IMG/VR virus record: IMGVR_UViG_3300013100_000027
Location: 1 to 27,878 of that record
Direction: 5' to 3' (one strand)
Origin: a virus
DNA: 27,878 nt
Part shown: positions 2,898 through 20,025 of the stretch, piece by piece
How positions within the stretch are numbered: the stretch's first letter is position 1
How the letters are laid out: each line of letters opens with the position of its first letter
Program-made: the position numbers and the translations under genes
Notes under the pieces: model-generated
Told to the model about the DNA's origin: nothing
The model's input: only the letters and a program-made list of their open reading frames with translations
Database searches by the model: none

Positions 2898-3404
2898 TCA
2901 GCGGGCAATTACCCTGATGTACGCTTGGCACGCCCGCAACGCGATCAATCCTTGGTCGCCGTCGTCGGTAATGCCGATAATTCGTTGAGCATGCGCTGGG
3001 TCAATTTGGGCTCGACGGGTTGCATGAACCAAGCCGCCGGCGCCGGAGGCGGTAGGCACGTCGCAGCCACTGGCTGAATCCGTGGCGTCGAGAAGGACTG
3101 ACAGCCGCACATCAGCAGTAGCAAGCTGGTCACGCAGGCGAGCCTGGTTGCGTTGGACATTGGATAGTTCTCTGCTGTGTTGTTGGTCTTGGCCGGCGAG
3201 CAGTTGCTCGAGCGTCAGGCGCTTGTCCGTATCATCGCGCGCCTGCTTGGCAGCTGCCGCACTGATTAGGCCCAGGTCGGATTGGAATTGGGCTGCCTGC
3301 CTCGCCAGCCTCCCGTCGTAGCGCCAGTCCTGCACCCTCCATGTCGAAAAACAAGCAATGGCCAGTGCCGATATCAGGCATACCAGCTTCTGTCCCGGCG
3401 TCAT
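2898..3404 (-). CDS. Rz: Rz-like i-spanin
   Basis: 168 residues with an N-terminal uncleaved membrane anchor (about residues 6-22, LVCLISALAIACF) and a long charged, helical periplasmic part. This is the layout of Rz, the inner-membrane spanin subunit that with Rz1 fuses inner and outer membranes at the end of lysis. The start overlaps the endolysin stop by 4 bp (ATGA), so the two are translationally coupled. A second reading frame inside it encodes the Rz1 lipoprotein, the classical nested arrangement and the strongest support. Confidence 0.9.
   Translation of the reverse strand: MTPGQKLVCLISALAIACFSTWRVQDWRYDGRLARQAAQFQSDLGLISAAAAKQARDDTDKRLTLEQLLAGQDQQHSRELSNVQRNQARLRDQLATADVRLSVLLDATDSASGCDVPTASGAGGLVHATRRAQIDPAHAQRIIGITDDGDQGLIALRACQAYIRVIAR
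2945..3160 (-). CDS. Rz1: Rz1-like o-spanin lipoprotein nested in Rz
   Basis: 71 residues, wholly inside the Rz gene in another frame. It has a short charged N-terminus, a hydrophobic run (LLLLMCGC) ending in a lipobox-like Cys at residue 20, and a proline-rich middle (PPPAPAAW). Outer-membrane spanins have exactly this form: a lipid-anchored, proline-containing small protein that binds the end of Rz. The lipobox has Cys at -2, which is unusual. Hidden genes of this kind are easily missed. Confidence 0.82.
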   Translation of the reverse strand: MSNATRLACVTSLLLLMCGCQSFSTPRIQPVAATCLPPPAPAAWFMQPVEPKLTQRMLNELSALPTTATKD

Positions 3405-3934
3405 GCCAGCACCTCCAGCGCCTTGTCGTATAGCGCCTGACGATCGTCCAGCCCGGTGAGCCCGCCATTGATGCGCCGGGTTATCTTCACGAACTGCCCT
3501 TGATCCGCCAGGGTGTTCAGCCCACGGGTAGACCAGAACCAGGCCCCCGACATCGCGGCGTACTGCGGCTGCTCCAGCAGTGTTGGTTGATTGATCAAGT
3601 CCAGGCCCAGCGCCTCACCGCACGCCGTATAGTTCGCACGGCCCGTTATCTGGATCAGGCCCCGACCACGGTAATTGGAGCCATCACCCGGCACGATATT
3701 GCCGAGGTCGGCGCGGCCTTCGTAGCCGGCCTGCTGCGCCGTCGGCCCCCAAATCTCGCGCACGTAGCACAACTGGCCTGACTCATGCCCGACCTGGGCG
3801 ATGAATGCGGCTGCGCGTCTTGCGCCGACAATGCCGTAACGGTTCATGGCCGTGTTCAGGGCAGAAACAAAAACGCCGGCTTGGCGGCCGGCGTTCGGGA
3901 GGATCTGCAGCAACTGCTGCTGAGTAATTGGCAT
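3401..3934 (-). CDS. Endolysin, glycoside hydrolase family 19 (chitinase-like)
   Basis: 177 residues. GH19 features are visible: HESG with the catalytic Glu at about residue 51, a second acidic residue at Glu60, and the block YRGRGLIQITGRANY near 88-102. GH19 phage lysins cleave the N-acetylmuramic acid/N-acetylglucosamine backbone of peptidoglycan. No signal peptide is seen, so export depends on the holin, which here lies far upstream at the head of the late operon. It is followed by Rz/Rz1 with an ATGA overlap, giving an endolysin-spanin cassette that appears intact. Confidence 0.93.
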   Translation of the reverse strand: MPITQQQLLQILPNAGRQAGVFVSALNTAMNRYGIVGARRAAAFIAQVGHESGQLCYVREIWGPTAQQAGYEGRADLGNIVPGDGSNYRGRGLIQITGRANYTACGEALGLDLINQPTLLEQPQYAAMSGAWFWSTRGLNTLADQGQFVKITRRINGGLTGLDDRQALYDKALEVLA

Positions 3935-3991: not shown

Positions 3992-5041
3992 CTACGCCAG
4001 GCTGACAACCTTGACGGGCTTCGCGGCTTTCTTCGGCTTCTTGCCCTTGGCTTTTGCTTTGCCCTTTTTGCCGCCGTTGCACTCGACGGTGGTGGACCAG
4101 CCGGCTTGGGTGAATGTCTGCTCCACGGAATCCACCAGATACTCGCCGTCGAGCCCCACCTTGAAGCCTCGGGCGTTAATAGATCGTTCCGCGAATAGAT
4201 CCGTGCGCCCGGGCATTTCCAGGCGCACGCCGGCAGTCGAGCGGTTGAACGCAGCGAGACGCGCCTTGGCCGCGGATTCGGCAGCAGTTTTGTTAGGGTG
4301 AATATGGCGGTCGGTGTGTACTGCCGGCAGACCGTCCGGTACGTCGTCATTCTCCAGGGAGACCACAGACAACTTGCCTGTCTTCTTATCTTGATGCTTG
4401 GCCGCCACGGTTTTGTGCGCGTTACGGTCACCAAGGCGGAATTGCCAGCGGCTTACGTCGCTGCGCGTGATAGTGATCGCGGCAATTGTCTTACCGCTGG
4501 CACTCAGGCCCGCTTGGCGCTGCATCACCATCAGTTTCCCGTCGCCCACCTTGGCCGTACAGTCGTACTGTTTGGCCAAGCGCGTGACAAAGCTAAAATC
4601 AGATTCATGGAGCTGGTCAGCCCGGGCGACCTTCGTGGCGATGGTGCAAGCCGGCGTCCAACTGTTGCGGGCCGCAATGTCAGACACGATCTTCGATAGC
4701 GGCACGTCCTCCCAGCTATCGCTGCGGATAGACTTACCGGTCCCACGCATGTCGCTGGCCTTGCCCCGAATAACGATTGTGTCCGGCGGACCTGAAACTT
4801 CGATTTCATCGACCACATACCGGCCCAGGCGCACCAGGGACGTTTCGGCATAGCCTAGGTAGACCTCGATCCCGGCGCCGCGCTTGGGCAGCGTCACCAG
4901 TCCGTCCCGGTCATCAATGCGCAACTCAAACTCGTCCGACTCCATGCCGGGCTTATCCGTGGTACGCAACAGCAAAAGCCGATCGTTAATCAGCGACGTG
5001 ATATCGGAACCGTTCGCGACGATTCGAAATTGCGGGGTCAT
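3992..5041 (-). CDS. D: Phage late control D / tail hub protein (P2 gpD-like)
   Basis: About 349 residues from ATG 5041 (MTPQFRIVANGSDITSL); a GTG 24 bp upstream is an alternative. The N-terminal 'DITSLINDRLLLLRTTDKPG' pattern, the central hub domain and the following position after U and X match the P2 gpD family, a T4 gp27-like component joining the baseplate hub to the tail. The C-terminus is a lysine/alanine-rich tail (about 20 residues). The gene should directly follow tail X, but a plus-strand gene now separates them. It has no visible defect, though the rest of the tail machinery is missing. Confidence 0.88.
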   Translation of the reverse strand: MTPQFRIVANGSDITSLINDRLLLLRTTDKPGMESDEFELRIDDRDGLVTLPKRGAGIEVYLGYAETSLVRLGRYVVDEIEVSGPPDTIVIRGKASDMRGTGKSIRSDSWEDVPLSKIVSDIAARNSWTPACTIATKVARADQLHESDFSFVTRLAKQYDCTAKVGDGKLMVMQRQAGLSASGKTIAAITITRSDVSRWQFRLGDRNAHKTVAAKHQDKKTGKLSVVSLENDDVPDGLPAVHTDRHIHPNKTAAESAAKARLAAFNRSTAGVRLEMPGRTDLFAERSINARGFKVGLDGEYLVDSVEQTFTQAGWSTTVECNGGKKGKAKAKGKKPKKAAKPVKVVSLA

Positions 5042-5083
5042 AGGGCATTGGCCAATAGAGCGCACTGGGCGGAATTAAAGGGA

Positions 5084-5101
5084 GGCGTTACGCGTAACGC
5101 C
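5084..5101. promoter_or_regulatory. 18-bp perfect palindrome upstream of the moron gene
   Basis: GGCGTTACGCGTAACGCC reads the same on both strands. It lies between the D gene start and the plus-strand exported-protein gene at 5166, about 65 bp before its ATG. There is no T run, so it is not a terminator. A dimeric repressor operator for the moron promoter is the simplest reading. Confidence 0.45.
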
Positions 5102-5165
5102 GAATGGACTCAGCCCACGGCCGCCAATAGAATCCCGGCCTTCAACTCAGCCAGTAAGGAACCCC

Positions 5166-5537
5166 ATGAAACGGACTTTATTTGCCGCACTGCTCGCCGG
5201 CGTCGCACTTACCAGCCACGCTGCCGAATCATCGAAGCGTGAAGCAAAGGACTTTATTACCCGCCTGGATGCGGCGGTAGAACGCGGTAACGCGCAGATC
5301 CTCAGCGGCAAGATTGATCCTGTAGCCCGCCGTAAGCAGGCCCAGGACTTGACCGGACTCCAGAACGAAGGCGAGAAATTCGGCGTTCTCTTTACCCCGT
5401 TCCACATGTGCAACGAGGCTTCAATCAGCGCGGCGTCGTCCTGGCAAGGACTGCTTAGCAACAACAAGCAGCAGTTCGATAACGGCATAGACAGCTACGA
5501 AAAAGAACGCCAGGAATGCCTGGATGCCGTGAACTGA
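5166..5537 (+). CDS. Moron: small exported (periplasmic) protein, function unknown
   Basis: 123 residues with a clear Sec signal peptide (MKRTLFAALLAGVALTSHAAE, cut likely after SHA-A). The mature part is helical and charged with two Cys (in HMCNEAS and RQECLDA) that could form a disulphide. AAGGA precedes ATG 5166 at good spacing. It is transcribed opposite to the late genes on both sides, wedged between tail X (2 bp from its stop) and D, and has its own upstream region. This is the typical position of a lysogenic-conversion gene expressed from the prophage. Superinfection exclusion or envelope modification is possible; no family is recognised. Confidence 0.75.
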   Translation: MKRTLFAALLAGVALTSHAAESSKREAKDFITRLDAAVERGNAQILSGKIDPVARRKQAQDLTGLQNEGEKFGVLFTPFHMCNEASISAASSWQGLLSNNKQQFDNGIDSYEKERQECLDAVN

Positions 5538-5538
5538 A

Positions 5539-5745
5539 TCAATCCCACAGGGCCACTTGCTCATCCACAGGGCCTGGCAAATCCGGCAAGACGATAACCA
5601 CGCCGGCGCGGTAAGGTTGATCCTCATCGGCCAGGCCCTGATTGGCCGCAAGCACTGCCTCAACACTGCCCACCAGATGGCCATAGACGTTATGGCAAAT
5701 GGTATCGAGCAGATCCCCGTCAGATGTTCTGCATGTCGTCGCCAT
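5539..5745 (-). CDS. X: Tail protein X (P2 gpX-like, LysM-like fold)
   Basis: 68 residues. The pattern GDLLDTICHNVYGHLVGSVE, then VLAANQGLA, then a C-terminal LPD...V.LWD matches P2 gpX very closely in length and order. GpX is an essential tail component with a LysM-like fold, probably at the tail hub. ATG 5745 is chosen from that alignment. It overlaps the end of the U gene by 26 bp, consistent with coupled translation. Longer upstream extension has no homology to the family. Confidence 0.88.
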   Translation of the reverse strand: MATTCRTSDGDLLDTICHNVYGHLVGSVEAVLAANQGLADEDQPYRAGVVIVLPDLPGPVDEQVALWD

Positions 5746-6565
5746 AGCGCACAAACTCCAAGATGAACGCCTGTTTGCGGGGGATACCGCCCTGCATAAG
5801 CGCGCTTTGATCTTCGTCAATGGTCTTGAGGCACCAGGTACCCAGCACAAACCCATAGCCCGTGGTCAGGGTCAACGGCTTGAGCTGGGAGCCTATCGAG
5901 CGCAACGTGTTGAGCTGTTCCAGACCGCCACGGTAGCCCGGAAAAATATCGCCCTTGAGCGTGATCTTCTCGTCACCCATGCCCACGGCCTGCTGGGCCG
6001 ACCGACGCGTCAGGCGCTCCTGGGAGGCCCAGCGGTATTCAGTCGAGCGGCGCAGCGAGTCAAAGGCCGCCGTATCAAGGTTGAAGTAATACGGCTGCGC
6101 CTTCGGGTCCAGCGGCTGAATGATCAGCAGATGGGGGAACGGCTTCACCGCCTCTTTCGCCGGCGTGCCGTCCGTAGCAAACGCACCAGTGGGCAGGATA
6201 TTTGCCAGCGACGGGTCAATCTTGCCGGCGATCTTGTTGATCGCAGTAGCCGCCCGCCCGGCCTGCTCCTTCAAGGTGCCCAGGCGCTCGTCAATCTGCG
6301 ACAGCGCGCGCGTAGCACGGTTGTAGGTGGCCACCACCTGGCCAACCTTGGCTTGGGCGGTCGCAATGCCACGCATGACTCGCTGAAGCTTCTCCCCCAC
6401 GGCAGGGCCAATGAACGGCAAATCCTCCAGCTCGTTGGCCGCGCCGGTGATTTCGCTGATCGCACCGTTTACCGGTCCAATCACCCCGTCGATACTGCGC
6501 CGGCCCGCTTCGCCGGCCGAGGCCAGGTACTTCAGGCCGGACTGTAGCTGTGCCAGTGATTCCAT
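5720..6565 (-). CDS. U: Tail protein U with N-terminal extension
   Basis: 281 residues. The C-terminal half (about 145-275) carries the P2 gpU pattern: EYRWASQERL, then GDEKITLKGDIFPGYRGGLEQL, then YGFVLGTW and a final LEFVRYGDD. GpU is the tail completion protein at the head-proximal tube end. P2 gpU is about 160 residues, so roughly 135 extra N-terminal residues form an alanine-rich helical region here. It starts 9 bp after the tape-measure stop and overlaps tail X. It seems intact despite damage upstream. Confidence 0.85.
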   Translation of the reverse strand: MESLAQLQSGLKYLASAGEAGRRSIDGVIGPVNGAISEITGAANELEDLPFIGPAVGEKLQRVMRGIATAQAKVGQVVATYNRATRALSQIDERLGTLKEQAGRAATAINKIAGKIDPSLANILPTGAFATDGTPAKEAVKPFPHLLIIQPLDPKAQPYYFNLDTAAFDSLRRSTEYRWASQERLTRRSAQQAVGMGDEKITLKGDIFPGYRGGLEQLNTLRSIGSQLKPLTLTTGYGFVLGTWCLKTIDEDQSALMQGGIPRKQAFILEFVRYGDDMQNI

Positions 6566-6574
6566 ATTCCCCCC

Positions 6575-7459
6575 TTAGGTGTGCGGCGCGTCGTATAGCT
6601 TGCGGTTCTCGAGCTGCTGGGCGATTTCCCGTTGCTGCTGCTCTATCAGCGGCCGCAGCTGGGCCATAAGCTCGGCCGGATCCTTCACATCGCCTTGCAC
6701 CGTCAGCGTGATAGGCGCGTGAATGTCCACTTTGGGCTCGATCTTGGCCGGCTGGACCTTCGCCACCACGGCCGCCGCAAGTGGCGCCGCTACCGCATCG
6801 GTGCTGGCCTGGGGCATCATCATGGACCGCGCAGCATCACCCGGATTGACCGCGCCAGGCGTTGCAGGCAAAGCACCCTGGCCGGGATTGGCCAACATCA
6901 GCGGCCCCGTACGCGATGGGGAAAACGACTTGGCGATATCCCCCAACACTGGCGGGATGTCCTTGCCGGCATCCTTCATCATCAGCGGCCCGGCCACGGG
7001 CATGACCTTCTTGCTTTCGTCAGAGCCATACATTGACTTGCCGATGGCACCGCCCAGGGCGTCACCGCCCAAGCTTCCCAGATAGCCCCCAATCAGGCCG
7101 CCTAGGATGGTGCCGATTACCGGCACTGCCGAACCAATGGCCGCCCCGGCCGCCGCACCGGCGAGCGTGCCAGCAAGGCCGCCAGCCGCAGCGCCATAGC
7201 CTTCGGCTTTTTCGTCCTGGGTTTCAGCGTTGTCGTAAGTGTCTTTGACCTTAAAACCGGCCTCTATAACGGCCAATACTGCCGGCCCCTTCATGCCCGC
7301 CCCAATGCCGCGCCCTGGACTTCGGCCACCACGGCGACCGCCCTTACCCTTACCTTTTCCATCCTTGCCGCCAGCGTCATCGAGGTCGCCCATACCCATG
7401 CCGCCAGAACCGCCAACAGGCATATTGGTAACAATCACCTTTTGCGGGATGTTGGGGTT
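6575..7459 (-). pseudogene. Tail tape measure protein, C-terminal remnant
   Basis: Roughly 295 residues remain, from about QKVIVTNMPVGG to the stop at 6575. A glycine/lysine/arginine-rich linker is followed by a long Gly/Ala hydrophobic stretch (GAAAGAAIGSAVPVIGTILG and onward), then a helical C-terminal end, as in tape measure proteins that line the tail tube. Its position directly before U fits P2 gpT. Tape measures are normally 600-1000 residues, so most of the N-terminus is gone. The frame continues without a stop into tail-fibre sequence, giving a chimeric open frame. It has no start of its own. Confidence 0.72.
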
Positions 7460-7475
7460 ACCCAGGGCAATGCCG
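7450..7475. other. Deletion joint: tail fibre to tape measure
   Basis: Fibre-like GLQTIDGIALG passes without a stop into tape-measure-like QKVIVTNMPVGG. The rest of the fibre, the fibre chaperone, sheath, tube, gpE-like and most of the tape measure gene are missing. The exact base cannot be fixed without relatives to align. Confidence 0.6.
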
Positions 7476-7894
7476 TCGATAGTTTGAAGGCCTCCCAACG
7501 CAATGCTACTCAGGGTTGCAACCACAACGGATTGCTTCAAATCGAGCTTGCCAATTTCTTCCGCGACCTTGAGGTCAACATACTCTCGGGTTGCGAGGAC
7601 AATCGCCGGGTCAATCTTCAGGACGACGCTCGCGGTATTCGCGACGATGAAATTCATCCGAATGATTTGGGTTTTGCCAGTCCCCTGCACAAGCAAAGGC
7701 TTGAAGCTGGGCGCACAGTTGGCCACCGCCACCATGTCGCCGTCGGCGTCATACAGAGCGATTTCCCGGATCCACTTACCACCCACGTCGGCCGGGATAA
7801 CCTGCTCGGTGATGATGATGTTCGGGTTTGCCGGATCGGTTCGCACCTGATTGACCGCCGCGCGGCGCCATTCGTTGATCAGGCGCGTTTGCGC
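7460..7894 (-). pseudogene. Tail fibre (P2 gpH-like) N-terminal domain remnant
   Basis: About 145 residues match the baseplate-attachment domain of P2 gpH: LINEWRRAAVNQV, then IITEQVIPADVGGKWIREIA, LYDADGDMVAVANCAPSFKP and a closing YVDLKVAEEI. The domain begins abruptly near the residue equivalent to about 50 of gpH. Before it the frame runs out of phase through terminase sequence. After GLQTIDGIALG it passes in frame into tape measure. Both ends are therefore deletion joints and receptor-binding parts are missing. An ATG at 7966 could in principle start translation, but only through out-of-frame terminase codons. Confidence 0.82.
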
Positions 7895-7910
7895 GCGGTT
7901 CGCGAGTGAA
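7885..7910. other. Deletion joint: terminase large subunit to tail fibre
   Basis: On the minus strand, terminase homology ends after QFTR and tail-fibre homology begins within a few codons in a different frame. Everything normally between them in a P2-ordered late region (rest of terminase, portal, protease, capsid, completion, baseplate V/W/J/I genes and the first part of the fibre) is absent. The join lies in alternating GCGC-rich sequence. Confidence 0.75.
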
Positions 7911-9302
7911 CTGGCGTCGTATTTCCTGGCCCACTTTCTTGCGAAGCTCAACGCTTGCAGGGTCACCGGTCAGCACCCAACGGTGAACTAGCCATGCTTC
8001 CTCACCGGCGCCGAAAGCCCAAACACGGCCCTCATAACGGTCATCCTGCGTGTCAATCCCGCCGAACAGCGCGACACCCCGTGCGGGCACTTTCAGGTAG
8101 TTACTACGCCGCTTGGCCAGCACTTCCCATTCCAGTTTCTCGCCTTGGTCTTCTTCCCATGCTTCGCCCAGGGTGGTGTTGATAAAAGTCTTGAGCTTGC
8201 CCCGGTCCTTGCCGACCTTCAGCCATTCGCTGACCACCGAAGCCCAAGTAACGAACTCGGAATACACGGTCCAGATGTGGAACGTGACAGATCGCGGCGT
8301 GGTGATGGGCTGATCATCAGCGGAAAACCAGTCCATGCCGTCGCGGGTCCAAATGCCTTGTCGCTCGCAGATGTAGCGCCCGGTAACTGACGCCTGGATC
8401 ATTTCGTGGTATTCAAACGAGCAACCGTTGCCGGACTCACACAAGTACCAGGCCTTTTCTACCTGGCCGTACCCATCGAGCCTCCAGCGCATGCCGTAAG
8501 GCTTTTCGAAGGCGCCCCACTTCAAGTGCTGTTCTGTGCCGCAGCACGGGCACTTGATGTTGAACCGAAGGAAGTGAGGCGACTCATCAGCCGCGCGGCT
8601 GATTTGGCAGCCCTCCCCCACTGACTCGTCGTCCTCACCGCCGGCAACGATCACCCCAGGCGTTGACCCGCGAATCGACTTAGGGAACGTCGCACCTTCA
8701 AGGCGCTTATCCCCCAGCATCGTCGGGGAGCCCTCACCCTCGATATCAGCGTCGAACTTTGACAGTTCGTCGTAGATCACTTCATCAGGGCTTTTCTCCC
8801 GGTAGTTTCGCGCCGCCTTACCGCCCAGACACCAAAGCATTTTCGAGTTATCAAAACGCTTTTCGTCCAGGGTGTTATCCCGGTGCTTCACCCCGTACCA
8901 GGGCGCCAAAGCGCGCACTAGGGGAACGTCGCGGATCATCGTTTCGATGTGGCGCTTCATCATGGTGTCGGCGTCCGGATCGGTCGGGCACCAGGACAAC
9001 ACGTTGCGTTTCTTGTGCTGGATCTTGTAGCCCTTATTGGCTACCAGCATCTTGGTATAGCCAACCCGTGCGGACTTCAGCACGTTGACTACAGCGATCA
9101 GGTCATTGCCCATCGCATTAAGAATGGCAACCTGAAACGGCGCCGTAGTCCAGCGCCCCTCCTGATAGGACGACTCGGAGGAAAGGTAAAAATGCTTATC
9201 GGCCCACTCAACCGCCGTCAGTGGCGGTTCCTTGTAGAGACCGCTTAGGCCCTTACGGACGCTATCAATCAGCGCCCTCATCCAGGGCTTCGACGAACTC
9301 AT
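7895..9302 (-). pseudogene. Terminase large subunit (lambda gpA-like), 3' truncated
   Basis: About 466 of an expected 600-650 residues. Seen in order: the deviant Walker A KSARVGYTK (76-84, as in lambda gpA), Walker B EVIYDEL (174-180), a zinc-binding pattern (CPCC near 251-254, CES and GC near 288-294), and the start of the nuclease domain GGIDTQDDR with its first catalytic Asp at 417. After QFTR (466) homology stops; the frame runs through foreign sequence to a stop at 7776. The nuclease domain is mostly lost, so DNA cutting should fail although the ATPase part is whole. GGAG before ATG 9302 supports the start, which overlaps the small subunit. Confidence 0.88.
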
Positions 9303-9819
9303 CTAGAAGCTCCGGCAAGGTGTCGGCCAGGTTGACCGCTTCGTTCCGCGTAACGGCTATTTCACGTTGGATAGCCTCGATGTGACGCACCTCGATATCC
9401 GGGTGCTTGCGTTTCACTTTGATGTGAATGGTGTCCAGGGTTGAGCCGAGCATCGCGCTCAACTTGCCCAGGGCGAACAGGCAGAAATCCACCGGCACCA
9501 GCTTTTTGGCTTTCACCCGATTACGCATTTCTTGGGCGTCGGCTTGCTCAGTGGTCAACCGCAGTTTCTGCTGCGCTTGTTTGTACTCAATCAGCGGATC
9601 GATGGGTTGGCCGTCGTCATCGAGCGGTTGTTGTTTCTCGCCCTTGTGAACCAGCCGGTTATCCAGCACAGAACGCACGTCATAAAACGACTCTCGGCCG
9701 ATCTTGGCGATGGGCGTCACCCCCCATTTATCGAAGGCTTGCGTGGTAATCCCGAGGCTGTCCGCCATGCGCGACTTGTTCAGCCACTCAGGTTTACGGG
9801 TGATCGATTGATTAGCCAT
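9265..9819 (-). CDS. Terminase small subunit (Nu1-like)
   Basis: 184 residues. The N-terminus has a winged-helix-like DNA-binding pattern (MADSLGITTQAFDKWGVTPI, then FYDVRSVL), as in lambda Nu1, which recognises the cos region and recruits the large subunit. The rest is helical with a glutamine-rich middle. It overlaps the large subunit start by 38 bp. The Shine-Dalgarno site before ATG 9819 is weak (AAAGG is about 17 nt away), so an internal start at MADSLGI is possible. It appears intact, unlike its partner. Confidence 0.8.
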   Translation of the reverse strand: MANQSITRKPEWLNKSRMADSLGITTQAFDKWGVTPIAKIGRESFYDVRSVLDNRLVHKGEKQQPLDDDGQPIDPLIEYKQAQQKLRLTTEQADAQEMRNRVKAKKLVPVDFCLFALGKLSAMLGSTLDTIHIKVKRKHPDIEVRHIEAIQREIAVTRNEAVNLADTLPELLDEFVEALDEGAD

Positions 9820-9868
9820 AACTACACAACAACCAACCTTTGAAAATGGGTCATATATAGCGAAGACG

Positions 9869-9907
9869 CGGGGCCCGAATTACCCCCATGAGGGGTGGGG
9901 GTCCGGG
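9869..9907. other. GC-rich dyad upstream of terminase, candidate cos region
   Basis: The run GCGGGGCCCGAATTACCCCC (9869-9888) leads into a hairpin ACCCCCA (9882-9888) / TGGGGGT (9896-9902). It lies 50-90 bp upstream of the small terminase start. In lambda-type phages with Nu1/gpA terminases, cos sits just upstream of this gene and is GC-rich with dyad symmetry. No T run follows, arguing against a terminator. Position and composition are the only support. Confidence 0.3.
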
Positions 9908-10017
9908 AGTACCTTCGTCTTTTCGTATCGACCGACCTGTCAAGCGAAAAAGGCGATGAAATCGAAGAAAAGACCACTTTTTTCACCTTTTCTCTGACTT
10001 ACCGTCGACTACGGCCA

Positions 10018-10410
10018 TCAACGAGCCGAAGCCATCGCTTCAGCCCAGGCGGTGGCTGCGTCAGCCTGATAGTTCGCGTTGACGATGTTCTGCCCGATCT
10101 TGAAGAACGGGAAAATAGTTCGATACCTGGGCGCTGAATCACTGAAGATAAACACTGGCCGTACCTCATCGCCCTTACCCAGCGACTTGCGCTCCCACAC
10201 ACCCTGCGTACCGTCGATCTCACCAGCGAAGAAGCTACGAGCATTGCCCTTGCGACGACTTCGGGCGCTACCGGTAGCGTTCGCCTGATAGCCCCTCGAA
10301 GACTCAGCAGCTCCAAGGCCCGATAGGATCTTCAACATCGTGCCGCGAGATACGTTGCCGTATTGGTTCATAAATGCTGTGGTGGGCACTGCGTATTGGC
10401 CGCTGCGCAT
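10018..10410 (-). pseudogene. Phage virion protein, C-terminal remnant (minor-tail/head-tail type)
   Basis: About 130 residues with a recognisable phage structural pattern: YGNVSRGTMLKILSGLG, then FFAGEIDGTQGVWERK, RPVFIFSDSAPRYR and IFPFFKIGQNIV, ending in an alanine-rich helix. The layout resembles minor-tail-Z-like or neck proteins, but the exact family is uncertain. The 5' part is lost: the frame begins in holin sequence read out of phase, with no Shine-Dalgarno site. Finding a virion fragment between holin and terminase is unexpected and suggests rearrangement as well as loss. Confidence 0.5.
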
Positions 10411-10694
10411 GATGCCGCGCGCAAGCCACCTGCAACGTCTGCGCCTATCACCGCGATTACAATGCCCAAGCCGGCGGCCAGGTAGAGGTTGTTCCAAAGG
10501 GCCATTGCGAGCAGCAACGTGGCCATACCCAACAGTCCAGAAGCTAGAAAGCGCAGTGCCACTCGCTGAAGGATTTGGCGAAGGCCTAGGTCACTGCCTG
10601 ATGCGCGAAGCATTTCTCCAGACAAACCGGCGAGGCTTAGTAGAACCAACAACCACAAAGGCACATCGGTCAATGCCTGATGCTCGGAGTTCAT
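10368..10694 (-). CDS. Holin with replaced C-terminus
   Basis: 108 residues with three hydrophobic segments (about 13-30, 50-70 and 72-92), the hallmark of pyocin/phage holins of the Pseudomonas late region. The start (MNSEHQALTDVPLWL) and GADVAGGL near the end agree with what I recall of that family. GAGGA precedes ATG 10694. After residue 91 the usual charged tail (normally of the type YERW) is replaced by 17 unrelated residues because of the adjacent deletion. Membrane segments are complete, so pore formation may survive, but timing may change. Confidence 0.78.
   Translation of the reverse strand: MNSEHQALTDVPLWLLVLLSLAGLSGEMLRASGSDLGLRQILQRVALRFLASGLLGMATLLLAMALWNNLYLAAGLGIVIAVIGADVAGGLRAASCAAANTQCPPQHL
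10400..10424. other. Deletion joint: holin to virion-protein fragment
   Basis: Holin homology ends at ADVAGGL (last codon 10422-10424). The virion-protein frame becomes recognisable from about 10400, in another phase. The joint contains GC-rich alternating sequence, similar to the joint near 7895. Confidence 0.6.
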
Positions 10695-11508: not shown

Positions 11509-13965
11509 TCAAAAGCCAGAGTCTTTAGCCCCATTTTTAACGATAGCCGCTCTTACTCTTTCAAATGTTGAGTTTTCCTGCTGAACATAGTCGGAAAAAT
11601 TGAAGTACGTCGGCGGCGACGAAAAATCCCTCCAAACACGAAGAAGATAACTTTTGAATATGATCGATCTGTCGTAACGATCCTCAATTCGAAGAGACTC
11701 AACTTTTCGCAACATAGAGTTGAATGCGTCACCATCAAATATAGGCGTATCAAACACCATTGCATCGAGATATGTAAAGGTCCCACACCATCGTTTAAGA
11801 TGGTAAGCGCCAACACTTGTTATACGAAAACTTGAAGGCATTTCGCCTATTAACCCGCTCTCATCCTCTTCAAATGTTAGTCGCTGAGACGTTTCGATCA
11901 ATTTCTTATTTGTAGTCTTTCTTAGCGCCACTTCAACTTGATTATTAGTAAATCCAAAATTTTGCATTTCACCAACTAGCTTTGCAGTCGCGCAGAAACC
12001 ATCCCTATCTTTGTGCGGCCCGTCATTATTTAGGAAGGACAACATGATGAGAACGAGGAAGTGTTCCCTCCGATCTGGTGATGACACGTCAAACACATTC
12101 ATTGCTAGCGAAGTGTCAGCATTGTAGTGAGAAAAATCACCCAACAAGGCGCTTTTTGTGAACTCATGTATTGGCACAGCATATGAGCCCTGTTCCTCCA
12201 TGTGTTTTATTATTTTTTCGGCATCTACATTGGGGCTTCCAATGAAACCAGTCACAAACTCAATAACCGCTCGAATATTCCCCCCTGTAATATTCACTAA
12301 AAATTCTTGAAGCGCCTCGCTCTGATCTAAAGAAACTATTAAGGCTTTCAAAAAACATGCTAGGCTTCTAGCATTAACTCGCACAAAATCTAAAGTCTCT
12401 AGTGGTATCTGCCCTTCTGCCATATCAAGAGCAAACTTAAGTCGCTTGTCGATTACAACATCTACTCTAGGAGGTGATATTGTGAATATCTTATGAGGAT
12501 AGGCAGTTAAAGCCCCTGAGCGCTTTGACTTATAAAACGTCTGAGGTCGTACTGCGATAAATACCGTGGCCGCCCAACTATTAGCTAGCTCCTGAGATAT
12601 GATAAAAGCATCTTGCTGAATCAAAAAATCTCGTTGATCTGCATTATCCAAGAAGATTATTATTTGCTTTTTTCTTGCTTTAGAAATATGTAAAATCGAA
12701 GCTTTCAAATGCTGGTCATTACTTCCAAGTTTTTTTGATAGATCAGTTAGAAGCGCCTCCTCGTATTTTACGGGATCATCTTTATATGCCCTACCCCATA
12801 CACTATTAGCAAAACGTGAAATTTCTTGATGGTAAACACCTCTGACGAAGCCATCCTCGTGAAGATCAACGTCGTAAACAGAGAACAACTGCCGCTCTAT
12901 TTCTTCCAATACAAATGTTTTAAGATCTGCTGTAAGTGCCCCTTTTGACCCAAGGTCGATATATATATATAAGGAATTTTTAAATTCTTCATAGGCGCTG
13001 TTGTAGACGAGATTTTTAACGAAAGAAGTTTTGCCTACACCTACATCTCCGATCAGAACAATTGGTCGCCTGGAAAGTGCTTCTGCGATGACATCGGATG
13101 CAAATGTATCTTTCTTTTTGTTTTTGACTGAAGCAGTATGCGGGTGTGGCTCTGATGTGCTGAACATCGACGCGTAGCGTGCGTCCAAAATATTCCTACT
13201 GAGAAGTGCGTACTTTGATAAGGCACCGCTTTCGCAGTAACACTCCTTGAAGAATAGGGCTTCAACCTCTTTCGTCTCCAGAACGTCTTGTATTAGGAGT
13301 TCTGATAGTTGCTTTAACGTGGCTTGTATGTCGCTCGCATATCTAATCTTTGGAAAGTCTACAAGTCTTGCGGAGAGTTTGTGAGGGATTACGTTCTCCC
13401 CAGTGGAAAGATACCTTACAATATTTTTTTCTTTGAGTCCTTCTTTGGATAAGAGCTGCCAAGCGACTGAGAATTTTTCTAACAGATGATCTAGGCTTTT
13501 AAAAAGAACCGCATCAGCATCTAAGACTGATATACCATCTTGTCTAGACGCTAAAAATGCTATGAATTGGTGTCCGTTGGATACAATGCCGATCGGCACT
13601 CCGCGTTTTCCGCAGTACTCTTGAGCTTGAACGATAGCTTCCTTTGCCTCTGGGCTCATAGCGCAAAGCGATGGCATGTCAATTTTGAGTTTATTTGTTC
13701 CAGCAGGAATCTCAAATACAATGCCCTCGCGCTTAGCCTCCAGAATTGCAATCCGGGGCGATCCTAACTCATAGTCTGTGAATTTCCCTCGCTCATGACG
13801 CTCCACCTCGATTTCCGATCGACTCCAATCTAGGCAATGCTCGATAATGTAATCGATGATATGAAATCTGGTTTCTGCCTCGTTCCTATCCGGAGATACC
13901 TGCTTAGCGCGCTCTTCGACGATGAGGTTTTCTAGATTGGTACGCGCCGTGTGCATGGTGATCAC
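11509..13965 (-). CDS. HsdR_N-type nuclease fused to P-loop (STAND/AAA-like) NTPase
   Basis: 818 residues. Residues 25-130 look like the type I restriction HsdR N-terminal nuclease domain of the PD-(D/E)XK fold: Glu31, Asp64 (FTDYE), Glu76 and Lys78 (ILEAK), and the Q..Y motif at 115-117 (QEY). Residues 300-560 form a P-loop ATPase: Walker A GDVGVGKTS (306-314), Walker B IIIFLDNAD (435-443), and the later AVRPQTF. The C-terminal 250 residues are helical, perhaps sensing. GTG 13965 is chosen because AAAAGGA sits 7 nt away; ATG 13956 is possible. No HsdM, HsdS or helicase motifs are present, so it is not classical restriction. AT-rich cargo; an anti-phage effector is likely but unproven. Confidence 0.8.
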   Translation of the reverse strand: MITMHTARTNLENLIVEERAKQVSPDRNEAETRFHIIDYIIEHCLDWSRSEIEVERHERGKFTDYELGSPRIAILEAKREGIVFEIPAGTNKLKIDMPSLCAMSPEAKEAIVQAQEYCGKRGVPIGIVSNGHQFIAFLASRQDGISVLDADAVLFKSLDHLLEKFSVAWQLLSKEGLKEKNIVRYLSTGENVIPHKLSARLVDFPKIRYASDIQATLKQLSELLIQDVLETKEVEALFFKECYCESGALSKYALLSRNILDARYASMFSTSEPHPHTASVKNKKKDTFASDVIAEALSRRPIVLIGDVGVGKTSFVKNLVYNSAYEEFKNSLYIYIDLGSKGALTADLKTFVLEEIERQLFSVYDVDLHEDGFVRGVYHQEISRFANSVWGRAYKDDPVKYEEALLTDLSKKLGSNDQHLKASILHISKARKKQIIIFLDNADQRDFLIQQDAFIISQELANSWAATVFIAVRPQTFYKSKRSGALTAYPHKIFTISPPRVDVVIDKRLKFALDMAEGQIPLETLDFVRVNARSLACFLKALIVSLDQSEALQEFLVNITGGNIRAVIEFVTGFIGSPNVDAEKIIKHMEEQGSYAVPIHEFTKSALLGDFSHYNADTSLAMNVFDVSSPDRREHFLVLIMLSFLNNDGPHKDRDGFCATAKLVGEMQNFGFTNNQVEVALRKTTNKKLIETSQRLTFEEDESGLIGEMPSSFRITSVGAYHLKRWCGTFTYLDAMVFDTPIFDGDAFNSMLRKVESLRIEDRYDRSIIFKSYLLRVWRDFSSPPTYFNFSDYVQQENSTFERVRAAIVKNGAKDSGF

Positions 13966-14342: not shown

Positions 14343-14732
14343 TCAAGCCACCGCCCTCATCTCACTCACAGCACAATCCACCCAAGCAGCCCCAGCCCTC
14401 GCCAACTCACGTGCTTTCCCTTCACTGAGTCCGAAATACTTCCCCACTCGCAACATTGGCCACTTTTCACCGTAGTAAAGCCAAAGCACGTCTCCCATCT
14501 GTTGATCCCGATGAGTTAGCCTAGCCACAGCATTATCGATAGCTACGGCCCACTCATCTGTTATGCAGTAATTCTTACTAGCTGATACCTGTGCTACCGC
14601 CTGCCGCATCAGCGCCAAAGTCGGAGACGTGTAACCAGGCACCCCCATCCCGTCCATTCTCCACCATCCCCACTGCTCCAACAGATACTCGGTGTCGCCT
14701 AACGGCCGGCCTGCAGGCTTACGAATCATCAT
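14343..14732 (-). CDS. Q-like phage antitermination protein
   Basis: 129 residues. The order YLLEQWGWWRMDGMG, then GYTSPTLALMRQA, then a helix-turn-helix-like stretch (MLRVGKYFGLSEGKARELAR) matches the lambdoid Q antiterminator family (phage 82 type) as I know it. Such proteins bind near the late promoter and let RNA polymerase pass the terminators ahead of the late genes. AGGGGAT lies just before ATG 14732. It ends the leftward early operon, the expected place. The late operon now begins 3.6 kb further on because the cargo block lies between. Confidence 0.75.
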   Translation of the reverse strand: MMIRKPAGRPLGDTEYLLEQWGWWRMDGMGVPGYTSPTLALMRQAVAQVSASKNYCITDEWAVAIDNAVARLTHRDQQMGDVLWLYYGEKWPMLRVGKYFGLSEGKARELARAGAAWVDCAVSEMRAVA

Positions 14733-14736
14733 GCTC

Positions 14737-15057
14737 TCAATCCCCTGTGTAATTTGTTCCGCCTGCTCCCAGGCGGTTTGGTTGCTCGTATTGGCTCTGT
14801 GGCCCTATCGGTGTCGGAGGAGTCTTTAACGCCAAGACTTCGCGCTGTACCTGTTGCAATTTAAAACTCAATTGGGTGACCAACTCGTCGACAGAAAGCA
14901 CCAACTTGCTCCCCTGAACAACCCAACCTGAGCCGTTGCAATCCGTGCAAACCAGCTCATAAAACACCCCCGCCACTACCGCCCTACCCTTGCAGATCGA
15001 GCAGGGTTCAAGCTCGATCCGCTCCCGCTTAAAGCCAGGCCCCTGTCGTTTCTGCAC
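14737..15057 (-). CDS. Small zinc-ribbon (DnaJ-type CxxCxG) protein
   Basis: 106 residues. Two Cys pairs, CSICKG (about 18-23) and CTDCNG (about 37-42, followed by SGW), resemble one DnaJ-type zinc-binding unit. A leucine-rich helical part and a polar tail follow. It starts with GTG 15057 inside the recombinase gene (29-bp overlap), supported by GAGG upstream, and its stop lies 4 bp before the Q start. Similar proteins sit next to Q in other Pseudomonas prophages as far as I recall. Function unknown; RNA or protein binding is possible. Confidence 0.65.
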   Translation of the reverse strand: MQKRQGPGFKRERIELEPCSICKGRAVVAGVFYELVCTDCNGSGWVVQGSKLVLSVDELVTQLSFKLQQVQREVLALKTPPTPIGPQSQYEQPNRLGAGGTNYTGD

Positions 15058-16357
15058 GTTTTAAAACCTCGCCCTTAACAAATTGTGGTTCTGGCTCGCA
15101 GGCCCCGCCATTCAAGGCGTCTACGAGGTTTTGATAATCTTCATATCTAACGCCTGTCTGCGCGTGAATAGCTTTGAAGCCACGCGCATCTAACCAGTCG
15201 TGCCACTTCACCAACGCCAGGCGGCGCTGCTCTTTGGCCTGGGTGTTGATGTAGGTGGAAGCGATTTTGCCCAGCGAGTGGTTGAGCAACATCTCGCCGA
15301 TGTGGCCGTCGACGCCGAGGTCAGTCCAGGCGGTGCGGGCGACCTTGCGCAAATCGTGACTGGTCCAGGCGCCCTGCCCCAACCGAGTGAACACGGCACT
15401 GGCTTGGTTATCACTCAGCGGCTTGCCACGGCGCGATGGGAACAGAAAAGCGCCTGTGTAGCCCTGGGCGGTCTGGCGGTCACGGTAACGGCGCAGCAGC
15501 GCGCACACTTGATCAGTCAGCGGTACGCGCAACTCGGTTTTGCTTTTGGTGTGTTCCGCCGGCAGGAACCACTCACACTCAGGCAATGCAATGTCAGCCC
15601 ACCGCGCCTGGCGGGTTTCACCGATCCGGGTGCCGTGGCACAGCATCATCAAGGCCAGCATGGCGTCACCTGGCGCGCTGTCGAAGCGCTCAGCCAGCAG
15701 CGCCACCAACTCGGGCACCTGCACATCACGCAGCCGGGCGGGCTTGGGCTGAATGCGCGCCGACGTGAAGTTGCTGAACTTCAGCTCGGCCATCGGGTTG
15801 GCGGGGATCAGGTCCAGCTTGCGCGCCTGACGAAAGGCCATCGCCAGCAGACGAAACAGCTGCTGAACATACGACAGCGACAGCTCAGCCTGCACCGGCC
15901 ACATCAGCAACCGGTCGAGGGCCTGGGCATTGACATCGCTAAGCAGCAAATCATTCAGCCGCGGCTTTAGCTGGCAGCTGATCGCAGACTTGATGGCCGC
16001 GCGGCGCTTGTCGGACAGCGCCCGTGACTTGGCCATGCGCTCGCCGAACCAGTCGAGCAGCTCGCCGACGGTCAGCCAGCCCGACACGCTGGCCGCCCCA
16101 TCCGCCGCCACACGCAGGCGCACTGCCGGCAACGCCGCGATCACCTGCTTGGTATTCAGGTTAGGAAAGGCGCCGATACGGTGCCACTGGCGCTTGTGGA
16201 GCAGGTACCAAGAGCCGCGCGCACGGTTCTTGGCGAAACGAAAGTGCAATGCAGGGTGGCCGGCATCGCGCAGGTCACGCACATGCTCGAGCTTGGCGTT
16301 GCGCACAATCTCGGCATCCGACAGTTTTACTGTCAGGGTTTTGATTTGGGTATTCAA
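15029..16357 (-). CDS. Second tyrosine recombinase inside the replication operon
   Basis: 442 residues. The full catalytic set is visible: Arg244 (GTRIGE), Lys271 or 273 (TKSKTE), His334 and Arg337 (SHDLRK), His360 (LNHS) and Tyr369 (STYIN). A SAM-like core-binding domain occupies about 92-190. The start is TTG 16357: AGGAGG lies 5-6 nt upstream and the TTG overlaps the preceding stop (TTGA). It has no att-like sequence or excisionase beside it and is co-transcribed with dnaB. That suggests a role in phage DNA processing, such as dimer or replication-intermediate resolution, rather than integration. A nested, captured integrase is the alternative. Confidence 0.87.
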   Translation of the reverse strand: MNTQIKTLTVKLSDAEIVRNAKLEHVRDLRDAGHPALHFRFAKNRARGSWYLLHKRQWHRIGAFPNLNTKQVIAALPAVRLRVAADGAASVSGWLTVGELLDWFGERMAKSRALSDKRRAAIKSAISCQLKPRLNDLLLSDVNAQALDRLLMWPVQAELSLSYVQQLFRLLAMAFRQARKLDLIPANPMAELKFSNFTSARIQPKPARLRDVQVPELVALLAERFDSAPGDAMLALMMLCHGTRIGETRQARWADIALPECEWFLPAEHTKSKTELRVPLTDQVCALLRRYRDRQTAQGYTGAFLFPSRRGKPLSDNQASAVFTRLGQGAWTSHDLRKVARTAWTDLGVDGHIGEMLLNHSLGKIASTYINTQAKEQRRLALVKWHDWLDARGFKAIHAQTGVRYEDYQNLVDALNGGACEPEPQFVKGEVLKRAETTGAWL

Positions 16358-16563
16358 ACGTTGCCCTCCTTTCGGGCAAGTAGGTCAACGACCTCAAAAG
16401 TCGATGGCCACATCCAATCGCCGTAGCGCTTGGCCATGGCCTCATCAGCGAACAAAGCCACGGCATGGTCAGGCAGGACGTCCATGTCCAACTTGAAGCC
16501 GCAGCAATGCACCGCATAGCGGTAATTGGCCGGGACCGGAACGGCCAGGCGAATCGGTGCCAT
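16354..16563 (-). CDS. Small phage protein, function unknown
   Basis: 69 residues. The start overlaps the helicase stop by one base (TGATG) and its stop overlaps the recombinase TTG start, so all three are translationally coupled. No membrane segment or motif; aromatic-rich C-terminal half (YGDWMWPSTFEVV). The tight packing is the main evidence that it is real. Confidence 0.65.
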   Translation of the reverse strand: MAPIRLAVPVPANYRYAVHCCGFKLDMDVLPDHAVALFADEAMAKRYGDWMWPSTFEVVDLLARKEGNV

Positions 16564-17930
16564 CAGTTGTTTTCCTTTCTGTAACGACCGGCCAGGCTGC
16601 TGACCTTTTCGGGTTTGGTCGGCTCAACCCAGCCCGCTGCGAGCTGTTCGAATCGGCTGTACTGACCGTGGAAAGCGGCACGCACGGTGCCGCCGGCAAT
16701 ATCACGGCCCTTGCCGATAATGATTTCGGCAATGCCTTTGGCTTCGGAGTGTTCGTGGTAGACCTCGTCGCGGTACACGAACAGGATGATGTCCGCGTCC
16801 TGCTCGATGGCACCGGATTCACGCAGGTCAGAACACAGCGGACGCTTGTTCGGGCGCTCTTCGCATTTACGGGAGAGCTGGCTGAGCAGGATCACCGGAA
16901 CGCCCAGCTCGCGGGCCATGAGCTTCGCGGTGCGTGTCATGTGGCTGACTTCCTGCTCACGACTGGAGGTGCGCGAGTCGGACTCCACCAATTGCAGGTA
17001 GTCGATGAGAATGAGGTCCAAGCCATACCGACGCATATGGCGGCGAGCGGCCGAGCGCAGTCGATTCATTGACATCGACGCGCGATCCGACAGGAATAGA
17101 TTCGACTTCTTGAGCTTGCCGGCGGCACTCATCAGCTCGGCGCCGTGGGTGTTCGGCGCTTTGCCATTTTTGATCAGCTGTAAGGGCACCCGCCCTTCGG
17201 ACGCCATGAAGCGATCCATCAGGCCCGTGTTATCCATCTCCAAACTGAACGCCATTACGCTTTTCCCATCACGGATAGCCGCGTGAGACGCGATGTTCAT
17301 GGCGAGCGTGGTCTTGCCCATGGCCGGGCGGCCAGCGATGATGATCAGTTGGCCAGGCTTGAGGCCTTGCAGCTTCTCGTCCAAATCAGGAATGCCCGTG
17401 GACAGGCCGTCAATTTCGTCACCACGATCAGCCCGGGCCTGCAGCACCTCGATGTAGTCGTTGAGAAAGTCCTCAGCCTTGACCACTTCGGATGTTGCCG
17501 ATTGGCTGTCAATGGCGTGGGACTCAGCCTGTACCGCTGCAACCTTGTCAGCCGCCGGCTGGTCACCGTAGGCAATGTCGTTGATCCGCACGCTCAGCTC
17601 GATGATCGACCTATCCAGGCTGCGCTCACGAACCGTTCCGGCGTAGGAAGCGGCGTTTGCAACGCTTGGCGTATTGCGGGCAATTTCTGCGGCGTAGGCA
17701 AACGAACTCGCACCACCAGGCAGATCCCCCACATAAACCCCGACGGTCACGATATCGACGGGATGACCATCACCGTGCAAGGCCAAAATTCCACGATACA
17801 GCTCGGCGTTGTCCTCGTAGTAAAAGTCCTCGGGCACCAGGTCGGCGGCCAATATGTCGATCAACTCAGGGCGTAGGAACATCGCACCCAACACACCATG
17901 TTCGGCTTCCAGGCTGTAGGGATCACGCAT
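16563..17930 (-). CDS. Replicative DNA helicase, DnaB family
   Basis: 455 residues. The N-terminal DnaB domain (EAEHGVLGAMFL) is followed by a linker and a RecA-like domain with Walker A GRPAMGKTT, Walker B LILIDYLQL, the SQLSR motif and EQDADIILFVYRDE, all standard for DnaB. It would be loaded at the phage origin by the O-like protein just upstream, so the phage carries its own helicase instead of a DnaC-like loader for the host enzyme. ATG 17930 is chosen because GAGGG lies 8 nt away; a TTG 15 bp upstream lacks support. It overlaps the O-like gene by 8 bp. Confidence 0.93.
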   Translation of the reverse strand: MRDPYSLEAEHGVLGAMFLRPELIDILAADLVPEDFYYEDNAELYRGILALHGDGHPVDIVTVGVYVGDLPGGASSFAYAAEIARNTPSVANAASYAGTVRERSLDRSIIELSVRINDIAYGDQPAADKVAAVQAESHAIDSQSATSEVVKAEDFLNDYIEVLQARADRGDEIDGLSTGIPDLDEKLQGLKPGQLIIIAGRPAMGKTTLAMNIASHAAIRDGKSVMAFSLEMDNTGLMDRFMASEGRVPLQLIKNGKAPNTHGAELMSAAGKLKKSNLFLSDRASMSMNRLRSAARRHMRRYGLDLILIDYLQLVESDSRTSSREQEVSHMTRTAKLMARELGVPVILLSQLSRKCEERPNKRPLCSDLRESGAIEQDADIILFVYRDEVYHEHSEAKGIAEIIIGKGRDIAGGTVRAAFHGQYSRFEQLAAGWVEPTKPEKVSSLAGRYRKENN

Positions 17931-18630
17931 TGTAATTACCCTCAACGACCTTCACGAAGTTGCTCGGGGCAATCAGCCAATCGAAGTTGCAGCGGAAAGG
18001 ATTACCGCCAGAAGCCGAGACCTTGCCCATCAGAAACTCGCTGGAGCGCACCAGGGCGAAGTACTCGGCCCAGAAACTGAGATCCTGATGAACATCGCTC
18101 TCGTTCCAACGTGCGCTGACCTTGGCAATCCGATCCTTGGTCAACAACATGACCCGGGGAAACTCCGGGATCGTTGCGTTGAACAAATCGACGATTGCCT
18201 GGGTTGGGCATTTCGGCTTCGAAATTTTCGTTGGTTGCTCGGCGCCAACAAGAGGTGACGGTTCACTTGATGGTTCTATTACGGTTCTGGGTGCGGCTGC
18301 TGCGGGGGGTTGTGTCGTGAGCTGCGGGGGTGATGGTGCATCTGCTGCGGGGCGCGCCTCCTGCGGGGGTGCATAAGATGCGGGGGTTAGGGTGTAAATT
18401 GTCGACCGCCCCATCCGTTCCCGGACAGACAAAATCCCCACCTGGCAAAGCCACTTTATGGCGGCCTGAACAGTCCTTTCAGCGAGGCAAGTACGCTCAG
18501 AGATTCGGGCAATAGAAGGCCAGCAAACACCCTCGTCGTTTGCATTGTCAGCCAGCGAAATTAGGACTGCCTTTTGCGGGCCACTCATGCCTTGCAACGG
18601 CCAGCACAGGCTCATGATGATGGTACTCAT
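17923..18630 (-). CDS. O-like replication initiator with helix-turn-helix domain
   Basis: 235 residues from ATG 18630. Residues 10-85 form a winged-helix domain (GPQKAVLISLADNAND, then SIARISERTCLAERTVQ and AIKWLCQVGIL), as in lambda O-type initiators and helix-turn-helix replication proteins. A Pro/Ala/Gln-rich linker (about 90-115) is encoded by repeated G-rich units that may be origin iterons. The C-terminal part (TKISKPKCPT onward, SFWAEYFALVRSSEFLMGK) resembles DnaT/primosomal C-terminal domains that bind helicase. AGGA lies 9 nt upstream. Four-base overlap with the preceding gene and 8-bp overlap with dnaB show one operon. Confidence 0.82.
   Translation of the reverse strand: MSTIIMSLCWPLQGMSGPQKAVLISLADNANDEGVCWPSIARISERTCLAERTVQAAIKWLCQVGILSVRERMGRSTIYTLTPASYAPPQEARPAADAPSPPQLTTQPPAAAAPRTVIEPSSEPSPLVGAEQPTKISKPKCPTQAIVDLFNATIPEFPRVMLLTKDRIAKVSARWNESDVHQDLSFWAEYFALVRSSEFLMGKVSASGGNPFRCNFDWLIAPSNFVKVVEGNYNA
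18300..18386. repeat. Five CTGCGGGGG-type repeats in the O-like gene, candidate origin
   Basis: Copies start at 18300, 18322, 18345 (last base C), 18361 and 18378 (first base A), spaced 22, 23, 16 and 17 bp. In lambda-type phages the replication origin is a row of iterons inside the O gene, bound by O itself. The repeats encode the proline/alanine-rich linker, so low complexity is an alternative cause. The regular spacing close to two helical turns favours an origin. Confidence 0.45.
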
Positions 18631-18851
18631 GCAGGGACATCCTGGGCAGGAGCCAGGGATGCTTTCAAGTAATCGAGGCATTCCCGGCGTAATTGAGACT
18701 TAAAAGCGCGCGAATACTGGCCACTGATCATCAGGGCGGCATTCATCGCGGCGGATTGATTGGTGACTGTGTGTCGAGACACCTTTTCGGGCTCGCCGGG
18801 AAGTGTCGTGTCATCGCCAGAACTATTGACTGGGGGGGTGTTTTTGATCAT
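18627..18851 (-). CDS. Small phage protein upstream of O, function unknown
   Basis: 74 residues. ATG 18851 has GAGGT five bases upstream; the stop overlaps the O-like start (ATGA), showing coupling. It is polar with a helical, positively charged C-terminal half. First gene after cro in the leftward operon, a position held by CII-like or unknown proteins in other phages, but no helix-turn-helix is evident. Confidence 0.65.
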   Translation of the reverse strand: MIKNTPPVNSSGDDTTLPGEPEKVSRHTVTNQSAAMNAALMISGQYSRAFKSQLRRECLDYLKASLAPAQDVPA

Positions 18852-18995: not shown

Positions 18996-19199
18996 CTAAG
19001 CGGCCTCTGGATATAGATCCGGTCTAAGCTCATGGCGCGGTATACCGGTTGCCTGCTCGACGGAGATCACGCGCTCCGCTGGCACTCGCCCGGAGGCACA
19101 CCAGCGCTGAACGTTCTGTGGCGTGCAGCCAAGAACGCGAGCAAGGGCCGACTGGCTGCCTGCTGCCTTAGCCGCACGCTCTGCTGCATTAGGTTCCAT
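18996..19199 (-). CDS. cro: Cro-like repressor (YdaS-type helix-turn-helix)
   Basis: 67 residues with a helix-turn-helix: GSQSALARVLGCTPQNVQRW (about 14-33). It is divergent from the CI-like gene with 109 bp between starts that contain three operator-like dyads, the lambda cro/cI layout. GAGGA stands 4 nt before ATG 19199. It would be the first product of leftward early transcription and would shut off the repressor gene and commit to lytic growth. Upstream extension of the frame has no support. Confidence 0.87.
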   Translation of the reverse strand: MEPNAAERAAKAAGSQSALARVLGCTPQNVQRWCASGRVPAERVISVEQATGIPRHELRPDLYPEAA

Positions 19200-19222
19200 A
19201 GAATCCTCGTTAAAACTGCGAT

Positions 19223-19297
19223 TACAACCCAAAGTTACAGTTTTTCGAATATCTCTACAAGTGAGAATTGCAATGCTCGCTACAAGTGCTGGTTGTA
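19223..19297. promoter_or_regulatory. Three-site operator between cro and cI (OR-like)
   Basis: Three 17-bp sites share TACAA-N7-TTGTA: TACAA..TTACA (19223-19239), TACAA..TTGCA (19256-19272) and TACAA..TTGTA (19281-19297). Centre distances are 33 and 25 bp. The third is a perfect dyad. They lie exactly in the divergent promoter region, as OR1-OR3 do in lambda. The same motif recurs after cI, which supports repressor binding. Affinity order cannot be read from sequence. Confidence 0.72.
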
Positions 19298-19308
19298 TTC
19301 TCACTTCC

Positions 19309-20025
19309 ATGACTACGACCTCCTCACGCATAGCCGCAGCACGAGAAGCGCAGGGACTCAATCAATCTGAGTTAGCCCGCAAGCTTGGCGTTAGCCCTCA
19401 GTCGGTCCAAGCATGGGAGTCGGGGCGCACAGCTCCGCGATACCCGCGTATCAAGCATCTGAGCGAAGTGCTTGGCGTCTCAATGGCTTACTTGATGGGT
19501 GAATCTGGGCCAGCCGAATCACACAGCGCCACTACTGACACCTCTCTGCAAGCAATCGAACCCTGGGACGAAACCACCCCTCTTGATGAAGATGAGGTTT
19601 ACGTACCTTTTCTTCGCGAGATTGAGCTCGCGGCCGGCTCTGGAAGATTTGCCATAGAGGAAAGCGACAGATCTCGACTGCGCTTTTTCAAGAAGGATCT
19701 GCGGCATAACGGCGTTCAATTCAGCAACGCAAAGTGCGTGGTTGTAAGCGGGAACAGCATGCTTCCGGTATTACGAGACGGCGCAACCGTGGGTATCAAT
19801 GTTGGAAAAAATACACTGAAGGACGTGGTTGACGGGGAGATGTACGCCATCAATCACAACGGCCAACTCAGAATTAAGCAACTGTTTCGCCTACCCACAG
19901 GCATTCGCTTGCGAAGCTTCAACCGCGATGAGCATCCTGATGAGGAGTACACATTTCAGGAGATCCAGGAGCAACAACTTGGCATCCTGGGCCATGTGTT
20001 TTGGTGGGCAATGTACTCCCGCTAA
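19309..20025 (+). CDS. cI: CI-like repressor with S24 self-cleavage domain
   Basis: 238 residues from ATG 19309. N-terminal XRE helix-turn-helix (LNQSELARKLGVSPQSVQAW, about 17-36). Then a cleavage site Ala-Gly in ELAAGSGRF, the nucleophile Ser in SGNSMLPVL, and the general-base Lys in RIKQLF, as in LexA/CI S24 proteins. RecA filaments would trigger self-cleavage and prophage induction. No Shine-Dalgarno site precedes the chosen ATG and the last operator ends 11 bp before it. The mRNA may therefore be leaderless, as lambda cI is from pRM. An earlier in-frame Met (near 19273) would overlap the operators. Confidence 0.92.
   Translation: MTTTSSRIAAAREAQGLNQSELARKLGVSPQSVQAWESGRTAPRYPRIKHLSEVLGVSMAYLMGESGPAESHSATTDTSLQAIEPWDETTPLDEDEVYVPFLREIELAAGSGRFAIEESDRSRLRFFKKDLRHNGVQFSNAKCVVVSGNSMLPVLRDGATVGINVGKNTLKDVVDGEMYAINHNGQLRIKQLFRLPTGIRLRSFNRDEHPDEEYTFQEIQEQQLGILGHVFWWAMYSR

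Follow-up and report, generated by a model that had tools for sequence, protein, structure and literature searches.

The virus record IMGVR_UViG_3300013100_000027, 27,878 bp with zero N and analysed here at its full length (the window), carries a prophage in which the gene for the terminase large subunit runs into a tail-fibre gene, and the fibre gene into a tape measure gene. Is such an element a broken phage, a product of assembly, a phage on its way to becoming a satellite, or DNA that its host retains for other genes? The evidence below makes an ordinary, recently inactivated defective Pseudomonas prophage the most probable answer.

Insertion site and host

An exact 20-bp direct repeat bounds the element, which spans 27,566 bp counted from one repeat to the other:

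193-212, att repeat on the folD side, TTTCTGATCCATACTCCTAA
27759-27778, att repeat at the far end, exact copy of 193-212

To the left of the 193-212 repeat the sequence itself shows the C-terminus of folD, in agreement with the folD integration site proposed by the first-pass annotation. A cryptic prophage lies between att sites and lacks essential morphogenesis genes; here host DNA (the folD end) stands outside the repeats, and such genes are missing relative to an intact homologue, the prophage IMGVR_UViG_2630968593_000003 (G009). We infer that the host belongs to the genus Pseudomonas. The E. coli genomes searched with the window gave zero matches, and none of the isolate phages matches more than about 4% of it at the nucleotide level.

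Three deletions in the head-tail block

The deletions were sized against intact relatives, chiefly the 43.5-kb prophage G009, whose folD flank and integrase are those of the window. Three joints were located:

7899-7900, joint J1, terminase large subunit to tail fibre; 8,519 bp missing relative to G009; overlap AA (2 nt)
7461-7472 (about 7464), joint J2, tail fibre to tape measure; about 5.6 kb missing; in-frame fibre-tape measure fusion
10422-10425, joint J3, holin to minor-tail gene; 427 bp missing; overlap TTG (3 nt)

These positions fall close to 7895, 7460 and 10410, where the joints had been noticed from the window by itself. J2 is given as a range because the fibre allele is divergent there. 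The total loss from the head-tail block is about 14.5 kb. When the G009 proteins from the deleted intervals were searched in the window by tblastn, only four fragments were recovered, those of the minor tail protein, TerL, fibre and tape measure. The head-tail adaptor, portal, head maturation protease, decoration, baseplate and sheath proteins gave no match in this search, which bears out the claimed absence of portal, head, sheath and baseplate genes. The remnants and the altered holin are as follows:

10018-10422, minus strand, minor tail protein, C-terminal fragment of 134 of 245 residues (tblastn match to residues 101-245), phrog_1924 3.2e-26
7899-9302, minus strand, terminase large subunit (TerL), first 468 of 687 residues, PF05876 and PF20454
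7464-7899, minus strand, tail-fibre fragment, about residues 48-193 of 632, PF12571 5.2e-37
6575-7464, minus strand, tape-measure C-terminal fragment, 296 of 829 residues, phrog_794 4.9e-30
10368-10694, minus strand, holin, PF16085 4.3e-19; C-terminus changed via J3

TerL retains its ATPase domain, and the nuclease domain is cut, with 135 of 294 model positions matched. At J3 the final 23 of the 114 holin residues are exchanged for 17 out-of-frame ones, as compared with the G009 holin. The description of an element that lost its structural genes and is otherwise whole therefore needs correction: the three deletions are there, but the terminase is cut too, so that packaging is damaged, and the tail genes U, X and D survive.

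The overlaps of 2-3 nt at J1 and J3 point to illegitimate recombination. Could the joints instead be an assembly or amplification chimera, with the missing genes present in the organism? The element is known from a single record, and a second copy of any joint was found neither by exact-pattern search of the viral_contigs collection for each joint nor among the 399 Pseudomonas genomes sampled, where no match crosses J1-J2. However, the overlaps are far below an assembler k-mer and thus too short to mislead it, which together with zero N argues against repeat-driven misassembly. The alignment with G009 is collinear, order and orientation agreeing as with the other intact relatives, and an analogous deletion is seen in an isolate assembly, that of Pseudomonas sp. 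GL-B-19. We therefore regard a chimera as unlikely.

Functions retained outside the deletions

The genes for integration, immunity, replication and lysis, and part of the tail genes, lie outside the deleted intervals:

26334-26678, plus strand, excisionase, phrog_9668 1.3e-40; open
26519-27715, plus strand, tyrosine integrase, phrog_1 1.4e-55; open; 92% nucleotide identity to G009
18996-19361, minus strand, Cro-like ORF of the immunity switch
within 19123-20025, plus strand, S24-type CI repressor of the immunity switch
16563-18681, minus strand, O-like initiator and DnaB helicase for replication; open, with no stops and few private changes
14343-14732, minus strand, Q-like late antiterminator, phrog_79 6.5e-28
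2898-3934, minus strand, endolysin and Rz spanin with a nested Rz1-like ORF, phrog_181 and phrog_2466; open
3992-6565, minus strand, tail genes U (5720-6565), X (5539-5856) and D (3992-5065), phrog_4094 8.9e-138, PF05489 and phrog_52; open

The first-pass annotation saw no visible defect in the immunity, replication, excision, lysis and methylase genes. This holds for integration and excision, immunity, replication, the methylases and most lysis genes, which are open, but not for the holin, whose end is altered by J3. In incomplete prophages the genes most often missing are those for portal, terminase, plate, capsid and lysis (PMC7744054). The damage to portal, terminase and head genes seen here follows that published pattern and favours the reading as an ordinary defective prophage. 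The lysis genes are mostly kept here, contrary to their usual loss, and this counts against that reading.

Two further genes were seen in this part of the element. Beside DnaB lies a second tyrosine recombinase (15029-16357, minus strand), which is distinct from the integrase located by the att repeat and is also conserved among the relatives. A 123-aa ORF with a signal-peptide-like start (5166-5537, plus) interrupts the tail genes between X and D on the opposite strand; it has no family match and is absent from G009 and from the prophage of Pseudomonas extremorientalis LMG 19695.

The following course of events would account for the element. A temperate cos-type phage, to which a contractile tail is assigned because the intact relatives carry a sheath, would have integrated beside folD in a Pseudomonas, and three deletions within it, between sequences sharing little or no homology, would recently have inactivated it by removing the head-tail block. 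The defective prophage is probably still able to excise, as predicted from its sequence. By the activities its genes suggest, it should also hold lysogeny, replicate and perhaps lyse the cell upon induction, whereas particles could presumably not be built by the element.

Age of the deletions and their rarity among relatives

In the codon comparison, remnants and retained genes alike are without internal stops and show few private changes. The private nonsynonymous and synonymous changes number 2 and 3 in 467 codons of TerL, 0 and 0 in the terminase small subunit (TerS), and 0 and 1 in the minor-tail fragment. The deletions thus appear recent. Only the fibre fragment departs from this, having 16 nonsynonymous and 12 synonymous private changes; these probably reflect a divergent allele and could include decay.

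How often is the block lost in relatives? The tail gene U product (gpU) has matches in 120 of the 399 Pseudomonas genomes, a number that probably includes tailocins; the yardstick was therefore restricted to gpU that shares a contig with TerL, the pairs being made by hand. In eight of the nine pairs the two genes are about 15-19 kb apart; in the ninth, from GL-B-19, the distance has collapsed to under 4 kb. At every gpU locus where the fibre gene was reached, it lies about 6.0-8 kb upstream, as against less than 1.5 kb in the window. Block loss recurs, yet is rare among the relatives sampled here.

Packaging site and dependence on a helper

Next to the truncated TerL, the packaging site and the small subunit are kept:

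9867-9882, minus strand, cos core TAATTCGGGCCCCGCG; aligns to the ends of the F10, JBD68 and Hali phage records; conserved in relatives
9265-9819, minus strand, terminase small subunit, intact, phrog_57 1.3e-36; 98.9% nucleotide identity to G009

The F10, JBD68 and Hali records start about 65 bases before terS, and since several records agree within a few bases, we infer that they start and stop at the physical cos ends. The element thus retains the cos core and TerS but lacks the end of the TerL nuclease domain, and the truncated TerL should fail to cut cos.

The length of the element also bears on packaging. At 27.6 kb it has about 65-70% of the length of intact relatives (39-43 kb). For lambda, the lower limit for packaging is roughly 75-78% of genome length. 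Judged by that limit, the element would be a poor fit for a lambda-like head, and a dimer would be too long.

The retained cos makes rescue by a helper phage possible. The element could then be a helper-dependent proto-satellite, which excises and replicates itself while a related cos phage gives terminase, heads and tails and packages it via the common cos. The cos core is the same as in the intact relatives and TerS is intact; the immunity region is mostly unalignable with that of G009, so that a cos-sharing phage could be heteroimmune. There is a precedent in E. coli O157 Sakai, where Sp4, a defective prophage without intact terminase, was packaged; the authors explain this by another resident terminase that acted on a nearly identical cos (PMC2669165). 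Defective prophages have also been suggested as a starting point of helper-dependent elements and proposed as proto-hitchers (PMC11389934).

A phage satellite of the P4 or PICI type is without virion genes of its own, and the window has only fragments and the tail genes U, X and D. A satellite also forms a distinct lineage across hosts, and here the exact-pattern search of viral_contigs gave zero matches to the joints, and no match in the 399 sampled Pseudomonas genomes spans J1-J2. No capsid-size or hijacking genes are found among the PHROG matches, where satellite genes may be poorly covered, and both the cut terminase and the short genome stand against an established satellite. We thus consider a helper-dependent proto-satellite quite improbable. 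We give equally little credence to a satellite at its birth, with virion genes just lost, attachment, replication, lysis, TerS and cos kept, and a heteroimmune cos-sharing helper already carrying it. The suggestion of an early step toward a satellite is not supported, for the searches found the joints in no other sequence, most relatives are intact and the deletion at J1 has truncated the packaging motor. The retained cos is nevertheless the one notable detail of the defective prophage: a related virus might still carry the element, and such a rescue, if true, would illustrate how satellites may begin.

Accessory genes and the question of domestication

The first-pass annotation also considered an element domesticated for defence or conversion genes. 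Several accessory genes are open: an 818-aa P-loop NTPase (11509-13965, minus strand, phrog_14719) in the interval between Q and the holin, a C5 methylase on the plus strand, a Dam-type methylase on the minus strand, and two further large ORFs. The NTPase has zero PADLOC matches. Its slot measures between about 0.3 and 3.6 kb in different relatives and holds a different ATPase-like ORF in G009; it resembles a cargo hotspot, and because intact phages carry other DNA of variable length there, the NTPase appears to be normal cargo of such phages. The 399 genomes revealed no lineage of the deleted form, as judged by matches across J1-J2. The deletions appear too young to reveal selection, and the private changes are too few to measure it. 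With remnants little changed since the loss, joints found nowhere else and intact relatives the rule, retention by the host for such genes is very improbable.

The two further large ORFs, of 439 and 333 aa (21754-24131, minus strand), have no significant Pfam, PHROG or PADLOC match. By eye only, their R-x4-H stretches RNRNVH and RHGIAH recall HEPN nucleases. A SRAP gene (plus strand) lies close to the folD end.

An R-type tailocin was rejected, as the tblastn search with the G009 block found no sheath, tube or baseplate genes in the window.

Comparison with known systems

Broken prophages of this kind are common, and the finding adds no new kind of system. The Pseudomonas phages F10, JBD68 and Hali have a similar terminase (TerL about 65-68% amino acid identity) and, at the ends of their records, a similar cos region; they are complete phage genomes, unlike the window, and no sheath or baseplate gene is annotated in the F10 record. 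The defective lambdoid prophages of E. coli O157 Sakai likewise have structural or packaging defects, and several retain excision and replication genes; their activity was measured (PMC2669165), while that of the present element is predicted only.

The closest relatives are G009 and the LMG 19695 prophage, which share the gene order, terminase, tail genes U, X and D and lysis genes at mostly about 84-97% nucleotide identity, G009 also having the folD flank and integrase of the window. Unlike the window, both keep the 14.5 kb of head, sheath, baseplate and fibre genes, and their immunity and accessory regions differ from those of the window.

The most similar damage is that of the collapsed prophage of Pseudomonas sp. 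GL-B-19 (L120, 2643-8541), which keeps TerL, tape measure, U, X and D and has lost the head-baseplate block with a short overlap. The portal start is joined there to the region just before the tape measure; comparison with a sibling prophage in the same genome shows 12.7 kb missing and a 4-nt overlap at the joint. The GL-B-19 prophage differs in that the deletion is single and independent, TerL and tape measure have long, open reading frames, and, unlike in the window, an endolysin match was not found between D and Dam. The window gives a clean, apparently recent case of prophage head and tail gene loss, which can be compared both with an intact prophage sharing its site and with another loss that arose independently.
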